A stretch of 41,550 nt of DNA from a virus, in the IMG/VR virus record IMGVR_UViG_3300025102_000077, positions 1-41,550 of that record. One strand, written 5' to 3'. Below the pieces are notes generated by a model, which saw nothing but the letters and a program-made list of their open reading frames with translations, made no database searches and was not told where the DNA came from. The first letter of the stretch is position 1; each line of letters opens with the position of its first letter. The position numbers and the translations under genes are program-made. Of this stretch, positions 18,996 through 27,950 are shown piece by piece.

Positions 18996-19029
18996 TTAGT
19001 ACCTCCTTATTAATTAAATAGATACTCAT

Positions 19030-19076: not shown

Positions 19077-19129
19077 GATCTCAATTTATTTTAAATATAA
19101 ATTTGCCACGCATTATCGCACGACACACA
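19077..19129 (+). repeat. Two-part element copy B
   Basis: GATCT at 19077 and CGCACGACACACA from 19117, 40 bases apart. AT-rich between. Intergenic, upstream of the promoter for 18995. Confidence 0.65.
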
Positions 19130-19164
19130 AAAGCCGTAGGTAAATCGGATAAACCTACGGCTTT
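19130..19164 (-). terminator. Strong hairpin, probable terminator
   Basis: AAAGCCGTAGGT pairs perfectly with ACCTACGGCTTT over 12 bases with an 11-base loop. On the minus strand it follows the operon that ends at 19204; the U tract is short (TTT then TGTGTG), so termination may be partial. Confidence 0.6.
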
Positions 19165-19170
19165 GCGTTT

Positions 19171-20256: not shown

Positions 20257-20555
20257 TCTTCCTCCCACTTTTCCATTTCATTAGACCATGAATTTACACC
20301 TCTATCTGAAAGCAATTCAAGTGCAACGTCTAGTCCTCTGCGCAAATATTTTTCATCTGATATTGCATCTAAAGATAAGACTCTAATTCTACAATCATTC
20401 AACCAAGAATATATTTCATTTCTTAATGCCATATACAATTCCAAGTCTGTTGGAATTTCATCTTGCCAGTTGTCTGAATGTGCGTTAAGGAAACTTGTTC
20501 CTAAATACGTCTTATCCACTTCAATATCTAAAGCGAATCGTTTTCTATATATCAT
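20253..20555 (-). CDS. Operon-head protein, 100 aa
   Basis: First gene of the 20555-19204 operon, ATG preceded by AGGAGGTACTAA. MIYRKRFALDIEVDKTYLG starts a strand-rich domain, followed by helices with DCRIRVLSLDAISDEKYLRRG and an EKWEEE end. The ribosome site includes GGAGGUAC, complementary to the RNA at 25951. No family recognised. Confidence 0.7.
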   Translation of the reverse strand: MIYRKRFALDIEVDKTYLGTSFLNAHSDNWQDEIPTDLELYMALRNEIYSWLNDCRIRVLSLDAISDEKYLRRGLDVALELLSDRGVNSWSNEMEKWEEE

Positions 20556-20698
20556 TTAGTACCTCCTATTTAATACTTAAAGATACCACACATTCACAAA
20601 CAAACAAACAATATATTTATATATTGGACATTGTCCAGGATCTTAATTAATATAAAAATTAGAAATGCGTAAATACATGCGCACGACACACATAAATA
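20556..20698. promoter_or_regulatory. Divergent promoter region
   Basis: Minus direction: TGGTATCTT around 20582-20591 as extended -10, with TTGTTT repeats (a CAAA tetranucleotide run on the plus strand) at -35 spacing. Plus direction: TTGGAC at 20624 and TAATAT at 20648, spacer 18. The perfect palindrome TGGACATTGTCCA (20625-20637) overlaps the plus -35 and is a strong operator candidate. Confidence 0.55.
20639..20692 (+). repeat. Two-part element copy C
   Basis: GATCT at 20639, CGCACGACACACA from 20680, 41 apart. Lies in the leader of the plus-strand cassette. Confidence 0.65.
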
Positions 20699-20708
20699 GG
20701 AGGTACAT

Positions 20709-21119
20709 GTGAGCAAGAACATTGCAAAAATATTAGATACTTATTTGTTTGACAAAGATAATGTTGAAGAAAGTACAACTATAAGTAATGAAGAATGGAT
20801 AAGAAAGTACAAGCCAATTGCAAATACTAATGATGAAAATCATAATTATTACAATGCTGATGGACAATTAGTACATGGTTGGTTTGATTACAGTACAGAA
20901 GAAGAAAGAAATTATCTTAAATCTATACCAGAGAATAGATTGTGGACCGAGATACATTCAAGCGGTAGTTTTGAGGGAATCGTTGCAGGTGCAGTAGCAT
21001 TTGATAGATTAGAATACTACATTACAGAAATACCATGGGAAAATAATGGCATAGAAGTTGATTATCATATTGAGTGTAAAGAAGAATATCCAGATTGTTG
21101 TCAGGACGAGGAGGAATAA
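20709..21119 (+). CDS. First gene of plus-strand cassette, 136 aa (GTG start)
   Basis: GTG at 20709 follows AGGAGGTACAT; the overlapping ATG meets a stop at once. MSKNIAKILDTYLFDK begins a mixed protein with ADGQLVHGWFDYSTEEERN and ends in CCQDEEE. The ten bases GGAGGTACAT just before the GTG are perfectly complementary to AUGUACCUCC in the RNA at 25951. The terminal GAGGAGGAA is the ribosome site of the next gene. Function unknown. Confidence 0.75.
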   Translation: MSKNIAKILDTYLFDKDNVEESTTISNEEWIRKYKPIANTNDENHNYYNADGQLVHGWFDYSTEEERNYLKSIPENRLWTEIHSSGSFEGIVAGAVAFDRLEYYITEIPWENNGIEVDYHIECKEEYPDCCQDEEE

Positions 21120-24596: not shown

Positions 24597-25628
24597 TTAC
24601 TTAGCTTTAGATTCTTTGAGCTTTGTAATTAAATCAGATGCTTGTCCTTTAGATAACTCTCCGCCTTGAACTTTTGTCTTAGCTTCTTGTGCGAAAGCAT
24701 CTTGACCTGCATCAATACATTCTGGTATCAAAGTATTAAGCATAAAGTTTGCTTGTGCCTCTGTCATTGGATCTTCTTTCCATTTACCGTCAGGTATTTC
24801 TGTCATATCACTCTCCTGTTCTATTACTTCTGCTTCAAAACCTGCTTCAGACAACGCAGATAAATGTTCATCAGTATGTGTTGTAATTATTTGCTCTCCA
24901 TTTTTTTCAAAATACAAAGCAATTTTATCAAGTAGTGTGTCTATCTCACTACTAGAAAATTGTTCTACAGATACATCATTCTTTAGCATTCTTTGTTTAC
25001 CGAACTCTACTAAATGTTTAATAACTTTTTGTTCAGCTTCTTTGTCCAATCCATAAGTAAATAACAATGTATTTTTTATGTACGCAATTATTTTTTTAGT
25101 GTTTTCTAATTGATTACCTGGAGCATTTACTGAATTAGGAGGTGGTGTCTGTGTCTGCTCTGCAACTGGTACAGATTTAGTTTCTACCTCCTCCAATTCA
25201 GTTGCTTGCTTCGCTGTTGAATCGGACGACATACTCCACAATTCTTCTTCAGGTAATCCAGTCCACAAATGAAGCCCGATACCGTATCTCATGGCACACC
25301 GTTTTAAAGCATCACTAAATGCTAGCTTTAATAATTCTGATTCAGTTCTTTTACCATTCTGTTTATCATTTCTATCTACATCACCAACCTCATCATTAGG
25401 TCCTTGTAATCCCTCAATATATAGACTCATTACAACACCCTCAAGTTCTCCCTCTTTATTTCTTATTTCTTTTTTCATTGTAAAGTTCCATTTTCCTGGC
25501 ACTACATCATTTAATCTTTTAGTAATTAAGTGGTGTGGTACATACTTTCCGTACTTACCTGTTGGTGGTGCCTTTACTTCATCATCTTTAAAATGTGCCG
25601 TCAACTTCTTATATACTTTGTCGTCCAT
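24597..25628 (-). CDS. Rad52-like single-strand annealing protein, 343 aa
   Basis: Residues ~25-115 carry the Rad52/Rad22-type core: KYVPHHLITKRLNDVVPGKW, MSLYIEG, then LLKLAFSDALKRCAMRYGIG. This family anneals complementary single strands without ATP, for recombination-dependent replication and repair. A Pro/Thr-rich linker near 140-160 leads to an acidic middle and a C-terminal helical domain (MTEAQANFMLNTLIPE ... ASDLITKLK) also found at the end of other phage recombinases. Starts by TAATG overlap with the 85-aa gene; GAGGACG upstream. Confidence 0.85.
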   Translation of the reverse strand: MDDKVYKKLTAHFKDDEVKAPPTGKYGKYVPHHLITKRLNDVVPGKWNFTMKKEIRNKEGELEGVVMSLYIEGLQGPNDEVGDVDRNDKQNGKRTESELLKLAFSDALKRCAMRYGIGLHLWTGLPEEELWSMSSDSTAKQATELEEVETKSVPVAEQTQTPPPNSVNAPGNQLENTKKIIAYIKNTLLFTYGLDKEAEQKVIKHLVEFGKQRMLKNDVSVEQFSSSEIDTLLDKIALYFEKNGEQIITTHTDEHLSALSEAGFEAEVIEQESDMTEIPDGKWKEDPMTEAQANFMLNTLIPECIDAGQDAFAQEAKTKVQGGELSKGQASDLITKLKESKAK

Positions 25629-25885
25629 TATTCGTCCTCCTTTGTATCTAACCTCATAGGTTCATCATCATACGAAGCTATGATTTTATCATTCATTTCG
25701 TAGTGTACCCATAACTTTGTTTTAGCATTTACATTATATTGAAAACATAAATCTTGTATGCTTTGTTCTTTGTGCAACCAAATCATATCAAATATTTTTT
25801 CACATTCTTCTATACTGTCAGCAGTTACAATGTAATCTCTTACACTTGTGTCAGTAAACATTATTGATATTTGTTTTTTCTTCAT
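25628..25885 (-). CDS. Hypothetical protein, 85 aa, leaderless start
   Basis: First gene of the recombination operon. MKKKQISIMFTDTSVRDYI has beta strands, then DSIEECEKIFDMIWLHKEQS. Six bases separate the -10 TAGAAT from the ATG and there is no ribosome site. Its acidic end (TKEDE) contains AAAGGAGGACGAA for the Rad52-like gene. Function unknown. Confidence 0.7.
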   Translation of the reverse strand: MKKKQISIMFTDTSVRDYIVTADSIEECEKIFDMIWLHKEQSIQDLCFQYNVNAKTKLWVHYEMNDKIIASYDDEPMRLDTKEDE

Positions 25886-25891
25886 AATATT

Positions 25892-25919
25892 ATTCTAAAA
25901 AAAAATAAAAAAATTGCAA
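25892..25919 (-). promoter_or_regulatory. Promoter of recombination operon (leaderless)
   Basis: Minus strand TTGCAA (25914-25919), 16-base A/T-run spacer, TAGAAT (25892-25897), then AATATT and ATG. The TTGCAA is palindromic and is also the -35 of the plus-strand promoter. Confidence 0.6.
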
Positions 25920-25944
25920 GTATTAAATAAAGGTATGGTATAAT
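25914..25944 (+). promoter_or_regulatory. Promoter of small anti-SD RNA
   Basis: TTGCAA (25914), then TGGTATAAT at 25936-25944, an exact extended -10. Spacer is 19, so the TG motif probably carries most of the strength. Start predicted at 25951. Confidence 0.7.
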
Positions 25945-25950
25945 TTTATA

Positions 25951-26026
25951 TCGTTTCAAAGATGTACCTCCGTACCTCAATAACAAACGAACAGAAAAGT
26001 GGTCTAGCAATAGATCACTTTTTTTG
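25951..26026 (+). ncRNA. Small RNA with anti-Shine-Dalgarno loop
   Basis: About 75 bases between a plus-strand promoter and terminator, in a gap between minus-strand genes; no frame with a start. From the predicted 5' end, TCGTTT (25951-25956) pairs with AAACGA (25985-25990), holding a 28-base loop. The loop has GATGTACCTCC directly followed by GTACCTC, two anti-SD modules. AUGUACCUCC (25962-25971) is perfectly complementary to GGAGGUACAU at 20699-20708, the ribosome site of the plus-strand cassette, and its GUACCUCC part to the sites of the operon heads at 20555 and 18995. Expected to block or titrate ribosome binding on those messages. Not a known family to me. Confidence 0.68.
25995..26025 (+). 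terminator. GNRA-loop terminator of small RNA
   Basis: AAAAGTGGTCTA-GCAA-TAGATCACTTTT, twelve pairs with one G-U, then a U tract totalling seven T. On the other strand the hairpin is followed by TTTTCTG and may also stop the 26737-26031 microgene message. Confidence 0.88.
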
Positions 26027-26030
26027 TTTA

Positions 26031-26189
26031 TCATTCTTCTTCACACTTACACATTGTAGTTTGTCTAACCATATCTATCATGGAAGAGTAGCACCACACA
26101 CAAAAAGCAACTGGACTTATTCCAAATGAACCAATTATATCTCCTGCATCTAAATCTATATCAGCACTACAAACATTACATGTAGTCAT
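26031..26189 (-). CDS. Cys-rich microprotein, 52 aa
   Basis: ATGA overlap. CNVC, CVWC and CKC give six Cys, with SFGISPVAFCVWCYSS hydrophobic in the middle. Ends CEEE in GAA codons although no gene follows before the terminator. Confidence 0.72.
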   Translation of the reverse strand: MTTCNVCSADIDLDAGDIIGSFGISPVAFCVWCYSSMIDMVRQTTMCKCEEE

Positions 26190-26269
26190 TCTTCCTCAAA
26201 TTCTGTATTAATCCAGGAAACGTGTACTTTTGTACCATCTTGTAAATATACCCAATCGTCTTTACGCAT
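26186..26269 (-). CDS. Microprotein, 27 aa
   Basis: Three bases after the previous stop codon set (TAATAATG). MRKDDWVYLQDGTKVHVSW looks like two strands of a small barrel; ends FEEE. Supported by exact start/stop overlaps on both sides. Confidence 0.6.
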   Translation of the reverse strand: MRKDDWVYLQDGTKVHVSWINTEFEEE

Positions 26270-26528: not shown

Positions 26529-26737
26529 TCTTCCTCCTCTGCACTTTTAATTGCTGCAAGCATATTTGTATTCCATTCCAACACAAATTGTTCACATAAT
26601 GATTTTACTTTTGTCATATTTTTTTTTGATAACGTTATTGTTTTAGTAACTTCAAATCCACCTAAAGAGTTATGTAAATTTATACACCATTGTTTTAATT
26701 GTTCTTCATCTCCAAATAAATCAGACGACCTCTGCAT
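26525..26737 (-). CDS. Hypothetical helical protein, 70 aa
   Basis: Starts 17 bases inside the metallophosphoesterase gene with AGAGGG upstream. MQRSSDLFGDEEQLKQW, then VTKTITLSKKNMTKVKS and SAEEEE at the end, whose codons are the next gene's ribosome site. Confidence 0.7.
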   Translation of the reverse strand: MQRSSDLFGDEEQLKQWCINLHNSLGGFEVTKTITLSKKNMTKVKSLCEQFVLEWNTNMLAAIKSAEEEE

Positions 26738-27950
26738 TTGAATACCCTCTTTCTGTTTCCTCTATAACTAATGTAAACACACCCTGTTGTGTACTCTTAC
26801 CTGTTTGATGTTTAAACCATGTAGACTCATCTAAACTAGGAACTTGAAACCAACTACGAGGATCTGTTTTATGTATGTAATGATGGTAATGACCTGATAT
26901 TAACAACTTAGAATCTCCTGGATGTTGCCAACCAAATGCTTGATTCTTCCACCAATTCATAACTTTAACTTCTGGCTTACCTCCCCCGCCACCAATAGCA
27001 TGACCGTGAGTAAAACTACAAACAGTACCGCATATATTAAAAGTTAAATGTGGCTCATCAGGAATAATAAATTTGACATGATTGTATGTTTCGTTCTGTG
27101 CAAAGATTTCACCAAGCTGTTCAAAAACTTCTAAGTCTGAATTGTCCATCTCACCAGTAGGTGCTACACCTTTAGATACTCGTTTGGCTCCATGATTACC
27201 TGGGACTGCACCGACAACTACAAGATCAAAATCTTTAGACCACTCTACTATGGCTTTAGCTATCAACTTACGTGCTACTTTTATTTGAGATCTATTATCT
27301 AATTCGACTGAAAAAGTTTGATCGGGATAAAACCCTAAACATCCCTCGACAATATCACCTAATCCTACGATAGTAAGTTGATCAAACTCCATGCCTGCTT
27401 TACGTAAAAATTCATATCGTTCTTTTACTTTATCTATTTTGTCTAAGAATCTTTCTATGATAGCTTCTGTCCCACCGCCATCACGTTTACCTAATTGTAA
27501 ATCAGATATGGCTACAAAAAAAGATCTGTTAGGTCTTGTAACTTTTGGTTTTGGTTTTCTTTTGTGAGACTTTATCCAACTTAAGAGTCTGTCATAATCT
27601 TTATCTGATAAAGCTAAATCATTAGCAACAATAGTTGCACGATAATACCATGCTTGTTGCACATTTCCTGAACCCATATTCATATCCCAGGTCCTGACTT
27701 GCAAAGTATTTTCTAATATTGTGTAATGATTAGGATCGAATCCCCAGTCTCTTAACAAGTCCTCAAACTTAGGACTTGCATTAGTAGTTGGTCTGGAAGT
27801 TATAGTTCCTTTTTTATTACCATGTGTAAAGCTAACACCTGGTTCCCATCCTTGCGGATGAGTAGGTATTGGAGCTTTAGTATTGTGTGATACGTCCTGC
27901 TGACTCTTAGTAAGTTCCTGTAACTTACTTTGAGATTTCTTACTACTCAA
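26721..27950 (-). CDS. Calcineurin-like metallophosphoesterase, 409 aa
   Basis: Metal-binding motifs appear in order: FFVAISDLQLGK (DxQ in place of DxH, about residue 150), GLGDIVEG (GDxxE), GAVPGNHG (GNH), CSFTHGHAIG, and LISGHYHHYIH (GHxH). The ~140-residue N-terminal part (FEDLLRDWGFDPNHYTI ... QVRTWDMN) is shared by actinophage proteins I recall. Such enzymes act as nucleases or phosphodiesterases, possibly Mre11-like in DNA end processing, which would fit the neighbouring Rad52-like protein and resolvase; substrate unproven. Its message also reads into the microgenes 26737-26031. Confidence 0.82.
   Translation of the reverse strand: MSSKKSQSKLQELTKSQQDVSHNTKAPIPTHPQGWEPGVSFTHGNKKGTITSRPTTNASPKFEDLLRDWGFDPNHYTILENTLQVRTWDMNMGSGNVQQAWYYRATIVANDLALSDKDYDRLLSWIKSHKRKPKPKVTRPNRSFFVAISDLQLGKRDGGGTEAIIERFLDKIDKVKERYEFLRKAGMEFDQLTIVGLGDIVEGCLGFYPDQTFSVELDNRSQIKVARKLIAKAIVEWSKDFDLVVVGAVPGNHGAKRVSKGVAPTGEMDNSDLEVFEQLGEIFAQNETYNHVKFIIPDEPHLTFNICGTVCSFTHGHAIGGGGGKPEVKVMNWWKNQAFGWQHPGDSKLLISGHYHHYIHKTDPRSWFQVPSLDESTWFKHQTGKSTQQGVFTLVIEETERGYSNAEVV

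Follow-up and report, generated by a model that had tools for sequence, protein, structure and literature searches.

A small-RNA gene almost certainly lies on the plus strand of the window, the whole 41,550-base virus record analysed here (GC content 33.7%), and its predicted product of about 75 nt carries a conserved anti-Shine-Dalgarno (anti-SD) sequence in a hairpin loop. The RNA would be transcribed from its own extended −10 promoter beside an exonuclease gene and would end at its own terminator, with the anti-SD sequence displayed by a 5′ hairpin. Judging from sequence comparison, it appears to belong to a new family of phage anti-SD RNAs that occupies a fixed locus in an uncultured phage clade. 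The RNA is conserved, widespread and absent from Rfam. To our knowledge, few small RNAs of non-model phages have been given any mechanism.

The window encodes an SU10-type capsid protein, a large terminase, a phrog_284 exonuclease, a Rad52/Erf-like annealing protein and a RusA-like resolvase. The exonuclease gene (26721–27950, minus strand) is the constant neighbour of the small-RNA gene. By capsid and exonuclease, the closest cultured relatives are mostly actinobacterial phages, at about 28–33% identity. Phages ascribed to 'Ca. Actinomarinales' have GC contents of 33.6–36.5% (PMC7771536). A marine low-GC actinobacterium such as 'Ca. Actinomarinales' is a plausible host of the window phage, and the marine phages that carry the RNA probably infect low-GC actinobacteria.

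The promoter element of the small RNA is the extended −10 sequence TGGTATAAT (25936–25944, plus strand), which follows the pattern TGNTATAAT kept in both groups of related phages, group 1 with the loop GUACCUCC and group 2 with the loop GUUUCCUCCUUUA. The predicted RNA occupies 25951–26025 on the plus strand, with its 5′ end placed about 7 nt past TATAAT; it is identical or structure-preserving in relatives and folds with −22.5 kcal/mol (z = −5.6, reached by 0 of 200 shuffles). In the fold, a closing stem P1 pairs TCGTTT (25951–25956) with AAACGA (25985–25990) around the conserved anti-SD stretch GATGTACCTCC (25961–25971), which is identical in group-1 units except for GTTGTACCTCC in L038. Within this stretch, GUAC (25964–25967) is the 5′ arm of an apical hairpin and CUCC (25968–25971) its apex, while the 3′ arm is GUAC (25972–25975). 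The first-pass annotation, made from the sequence alone, had read GTACCTC at this 3′ arm as the second half of a 'double' anti-SD. The arm is GUAC or GUAU in all relatives, indicating that it keeps pairing and not an anti-SD sequence, and GTACCTC itself is replaced there by GTATTG or GTATTA, so that only one anti-SD is conserved. The intrinsic terminator (25993–26025) was indicated by a terminator search and by compensatory changes in relatives, and it was the sole one detected across 25800–26200 (0.2 in shuffles). Its GCAA loop and U tract had been annotated correctly, whereas the stem (25993–26024, with the U tract after it) has 14 pairs and not 12. The other strings named in that annotation are present as well, namely TTGCAA (25914–25919), TGGTATAAT, TCGTTT/AAACGA and GATGTACCTCC.

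The role given to TTGCAA did not hold. At this position relatives carry ATGCAA or ATCAAG/C, and no plus-strand −35 for the small RNA is conserved among them. On the minus strand, TTGCAA is instead the −35 of a leaderless promoter of the gene at 25628–25885 (TTGCAA-N16-TAGAAT-N6-ATG, 25886–25919). The layout TTGNNN, 16–17 bases, TANNAT, 6–7 bases and ATG is common to 11 of 11 group-1 sequences; the leaderless promoter of this gene is thus conserved, and it is divergent from the small-RNA gene. Nor is the region free of reading frames, as had been proposed: a minus-strand ORF of 50 codons (25882–26034) crosses it with ATGA overlaps at both ends, and a plus-strand ORF begins inside it at 25962. 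The minus-strand ORF is the only credible rival frame, and its conservation, looked for among the aligned relatives, was not found.

For this comparison, 19 contigs encoding relatives of the neighbour protein at 25628–25885 were aligned upstream of that gene. In the sequences nearest to the window the hairpin and the terminator are almost unchanged, even where the gene at 26031–26189 has been swapped (L005, L009 and L014). The more distant L015–L024 have lost the 50-codon frame and have no start after GGAGGTACATC; they retain TGGTATAAT (TGGTATAGT in L022 and L023), GATGTACCTCC and a terminator whose altered bases still pair, and their closing stem is CTATCG/CGATAG in place of TCGTTT/AAACGA. 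The extended −10 is TGGTACAAT in L007. Across relatives the N of TGNTATAAT is G, T, A or C while the other letters are mostly constant, which is the mark of an extended −10. The 5′ arm of P1 may also be AUCG, UAUCGA or UAUAAC, each with a matching partner, whereas the loop GATGTACCTCC stays constant in group 1. A compensatory change from AAGTGGTCTA/TAGATCACTT to AGAGGTCT/AGACCTCT is seen in the terminator. Every group-1 sequence folds into the outer stem and the apical GUAC-CUCC-GUAC/U hairpin, with z-scores of −3.6 to −5.8 in five folded examples and an apex of six bases (CUCCAA) in L015 and L016; the stems thus differ yet fold, in a set too small for a formal covariation count. The L038 unit, which has no U tract, is perhaps in decay, and the contigs of the L007 and L038 lineages seem to stop short of the operon heads. 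When any CCTCC loop ahead of a group-1 terminator was searched for by pattern, only the known group-1 contigs came up. The proposal of a standalone plus-strand RNA gene with an anti-SD loop is borne out by these relatives, in which the unit is kept while neighbour genes, stem letters and the promoter spacer letter change. The adjoining slot at 26031–26189 (minus strand) is itself exchangeable, being filled by unrelated small genes in L005, L009, L014 and L015-type relatives next to an RNA that stays.

The same alignment bears on the reading that CCTCC is a mere complement of a minus-strand ribosome site, for example one serving a hydrophobic peptide of 25 aa that would begin at a TTG near 25957, in which case the plus-strand RNA would be a type I antitoxin. 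In the window, this TTG is indeed preceded by GGAGGTACATCT, and the open frame behind it runs into the next gene with an ATGA overlap. An opposite-strand hydrophobic peptide frame, conserved as in type I toxin–antitoxin systems, was not found among the relatives: the frame is shifted in L013 and startless in L015–L024, while the RNA unit stays. Moreover, on the opposite strand of group-2 units GGAGG is not consistently followed by a start, and the unit is found on both strands relative to its neighbour. The toxin reading of CCTCC is ruled out by the alignment, and the explanation as a whole is extremely improbable.

A second form of the unit was found at loci around exonuclease relatives, just downstream of the gene, and consists of TGNTATAAT, a hairpin with the loop GTTTCCTCCTTTA and a terminator. 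This group-2 form occurs in phages with about 60% exonuclease identity and in some with 35%. Its loop is an invariant stretch of 13 nt, GUUUCCUCCUUUA, with the anti-SD core CCUCCUUU, and the predicted group-2 RNAs are about 85 nt long. Including an independent DNA-pattern scan of IMG/VR, at least 48 distinct group-2 sequences have the loop flanked by at least six pairs, almost all of them with an extended −10; among the matches listed, nearly all other IMG/VR hits have 0–2 pairs. Covariation, which the first-pass annotation had proposed as a check, is present in the group-2 stem. In an ungapped alignment of 17 distinct stems, 90.4% of cells are paired against 65.8% after shuffling, and 34 two-sided changes compare with 12.3 in shuffled stems, none of 500 shuffles reaching 34. 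The covariation score is 0.749 (0.276 shuffled), and structures slid along the alignment reach at most 0.201. In L052, L065, L077 and L045, a TTGACA- or TTGCAT-like hexamer, 16–17 bases and a TATATT- or TATCTT-like hexamer were seen by eye opposite the group-2 extended −10; this pair may be a divergent promoter that overlaps it.

Among 180 occurrences of the unit, with overlapping loci counted more than once, 177 are located about 60–1000 nt beyond the exonuclease gene, measured from its 3′ end. Relative to this gene, the unit is on the opposite strand in group 1. Most of group 2 has it on the gene's own strand and a few group-2 lineages, such as L045, L046 and L049, on the opposite one, which ties the unit to the locus and not to a strand. 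The constant position beside the exonuclease gene would also suit a hairpin that works at the DNA level next to recombination genes, for instance in priming or packaging, and is transcribed only incidentally. That explanation is very unlikely, given that the extended −10 and the terminator, the unit's own promoter and terminator on sequence evidence, are conserved in both groups, and that G-U forms among the Watson-Crick forms of the covarying group-2 pairs point to RNA.

We infer that groups 1 and 2 are one family. A group-2 covariance model gave one strong match in each of ten of the group-2 stretches searched but detected nothing in group 1 or in phages whose exonuclease is 44% identical; the common origin of the groups is therefore argued from place and layout, not from sequence. 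No Rfam 15 family, including C4 antisense RNA, scored above its gathering cut-off in the window and nine related loci. Against cultured phages, blastn gave no match for an 801-bp region, and for the units only 18–27% query coverage in unrelated phages (best E 0.08). In genome contigs, the matches listed for the group-2 pattern have no proper stem and look like chance.

Pairing with Shine-Dalgarno (SD) sequences is probably how the small RNA acts. The sequence GGAGGTACAT (20699–20708, plus strand), a 10-nt perfect complement of AUGUACCUCC, lies directly before the GTG at 20709 that begins the plus-strand accessory operon. On the minus strand, GGAGGTAC offers an 8-nt perfect complement before the operons starting at 20555 (20559–20566) and 18995 (18999–19006). 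These three candidate sites had all been located correctly in the first-pass annotation. In group 1, the apex CUCC would touch the GGAG of the target SD first; the weak GUAC stem would then open and zip onto the GUAC just 3′ of GGAG, giving a duplex of 8–10 bp between GUACCUCC and GGAGGUAC. Ribosome binding would be blocked at the heads 20709+, 20555− and 18995−, and the operons would be silenced or timed. That a trans-acting RNA occludes the SDs of accessory operons in this manner has about an even chance of being right, and the evidence is similarly balanced for the narrower proposal that these three operons are what the window RNA regulates. The operon-head proteins received no function from Pfam or PHROGs. 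If the mechanism is true, the phage re-addresses translation by a 75-nt RNA and not by a protein. Since the RNA occurs naturally with two loops whose predicted targets differ, SD interception can be tested by compensatory mutation.

Counts of matching sites are consistent with such targeting. The window holds six copies of GGAGGTAC against 0.44 expected, of which three are at the operon heads, two are intragenic (3006 and 23096) and one is the RNA's own complement (25964). In group 1, starts with GGAGGTAC are mostly operon heads, as had been suggested. Among 11 group-1 and 14 group-2 records, with heads called by a simple script and not from curated annotation, 14 of 309 group-1 starts have at least 8 nt complementary to GATGTACCTCCGTACC, made up of 10 of about 64 heads and 4 of the 245 starts that are not heads. 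Such a match is absent from all of the roughly 124 group-2 heads. The difference between heads of the two groups (Fisher p ~1e-5) is overstated by such p-values, since the heads come from few gene families and the phages are related and not independent. At group-1 heads, GTACCTCC is the most matched of the 64 NNNCCTCC words (10 heads against 2 for the next), and random flanks around CCTCC reached 10 heads in 81 of 2000 trials. By duplex energy, computed without accessibility, the three window heads rank 3rd, 11th and 12th of 69 starts. The operon-head idea is plausible, not proven. A loop that changes while the heads do not, which had been named in advance as evidence against it, was not clearly found: phages with GUACCUCC have GGAGGTAC heads and phages with GUUUCCUCCUUUA lack them. 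The 14 group-2 records have no clear phage target set and no matching TAAAGGAGGAAAC heads, so that loop and head SDs co-vary in a single direction, on the evidence of few gene families.

The group-2 loop invites a different explanation, in which the RNA is a general decoy that copies the 3′ tail of 16S rRNA, binds strong SDs, above all those of host mRNAs, and lowers host translation, the group-1 heads being incidental or a later refinement. CCUCCUUU, held by the invariant 13-nt loop, is the actinobacterial anti-SD core, and group-2 phage starts seldom match their own loop over at least 8 nt (18 of 489, compared with 44 of 309 in group 1). The group-2 loop, which resembles the 16S tail, may address host mRNAs, and if the decoy is real, the group-2 RNA would lower translation of AAAGGAGG mRNAs. 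However, GUACCUCC in group 1 differs from the 16S tail at just those positions that match the phage's own heads, and the difference in SD use between groups may reflect gene content only. The 16S tail also leaves the UAC after GGAGG unexplained; it would favour UGA. As an account of the RNA in general, the decoy is rather unlikely. Similarly doubtful is a combined scenario in which an RNA of a marine phage clade mimics the 16S anti-SD tail, the canonical loop lowering host translation, and the window lineage has a private code, GUACCUCC/GGAGGUAC, with loop and heads shifted together, that times phage operons. The loop could also be a binding site for a phage or host protein, with the likeness to an anti-SD being secondary. 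Thirteen invariant loop bases on a freely changing stem are what is expected of a protein-bound loop, but what the two loop types have in common is precisely CCUCC, the anti-SD core, and in group 1 the flank also fits the head SDs. A protein site is a fairly unlikely explanation.

Other features were noticed around the accessory operons. The sequence GCACGACACA occurs at 19118, 20681, 22414, 23397, 23424 and 24262, on the plus strand only (6 against 0.00 expected), and one copy lies just ahead of the operon head at 20699. Most copies, in the window and in relatives, stand 35–38 bases after a GATC. Most group-1 records contain it, whereas the 14 group-2 records do not, and its appearance suggests a bipartite, phage-specific promoter or operator. 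At 19118–19170 (plus strand) a copy runs directly into a strong hairpin that belongs to no gene, AAAGCCGTAGG...CCTACGGCTTT; the same arrangement is seen from L096:4701 onwards, where the hairpin is AAAGCCGGCC...GGCCGGCT. The hairpin at these two places is perhaps a second small RNA. Between 21119 and 22827 (plus strand), many small operon proteins end in EEE or EEEE, their codons GAGGAGGAAGAATGA doubling as ribosome site and start of the next gene.

Among known systems, the c4 antisense RNA of phages P1 and P7 has loops that base-pair with the ribosome site of a phage gene and thereby block it (PMC12197685), which is the action proposed here for another phage RNA. Unlike c4, the small RNA of the window is without an Rfam match and has its own promoter and terminator; c4 acts on one linked target, whereas short matches of 8–10 bp to several operon heads are found here, and the hosts are others. 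The CU-rich anti-SD loop is also reminiscent of bacterial regulators. In RNAs of the LhrC, AbcR1/2 and RsaE types, a C/U-rich hairpin or single-stranded loop pairs with SD regions. Those differ from the present RNA, which is phage-encoded, in single copy and at a fixed phage locus, with GUACCUCC or the 16S tail as its extended loop; a relation to them in sequence was not found. The mycobacteriophages L5 and D29 produce abundant non-coding RNAs of a function not known (PMC5712189), comparable as non-coding transcripts, predicted in our case, of probably actinobacterial phages. They come from a region of about 500 bp at the Pleft end and have no reported anti-SD hairpin (PMC5712189), and they are unrelated in sequence as far as tested. 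The last likeness is to the 16S rRNA 3′ end: the group-2 loop contains CCUCCUUU, the core known from actinobacterial 16S tails in general, displayed here in a phage hairpin, whereas GUACCUCC of group 1 differs from the tail 5′ of this core.
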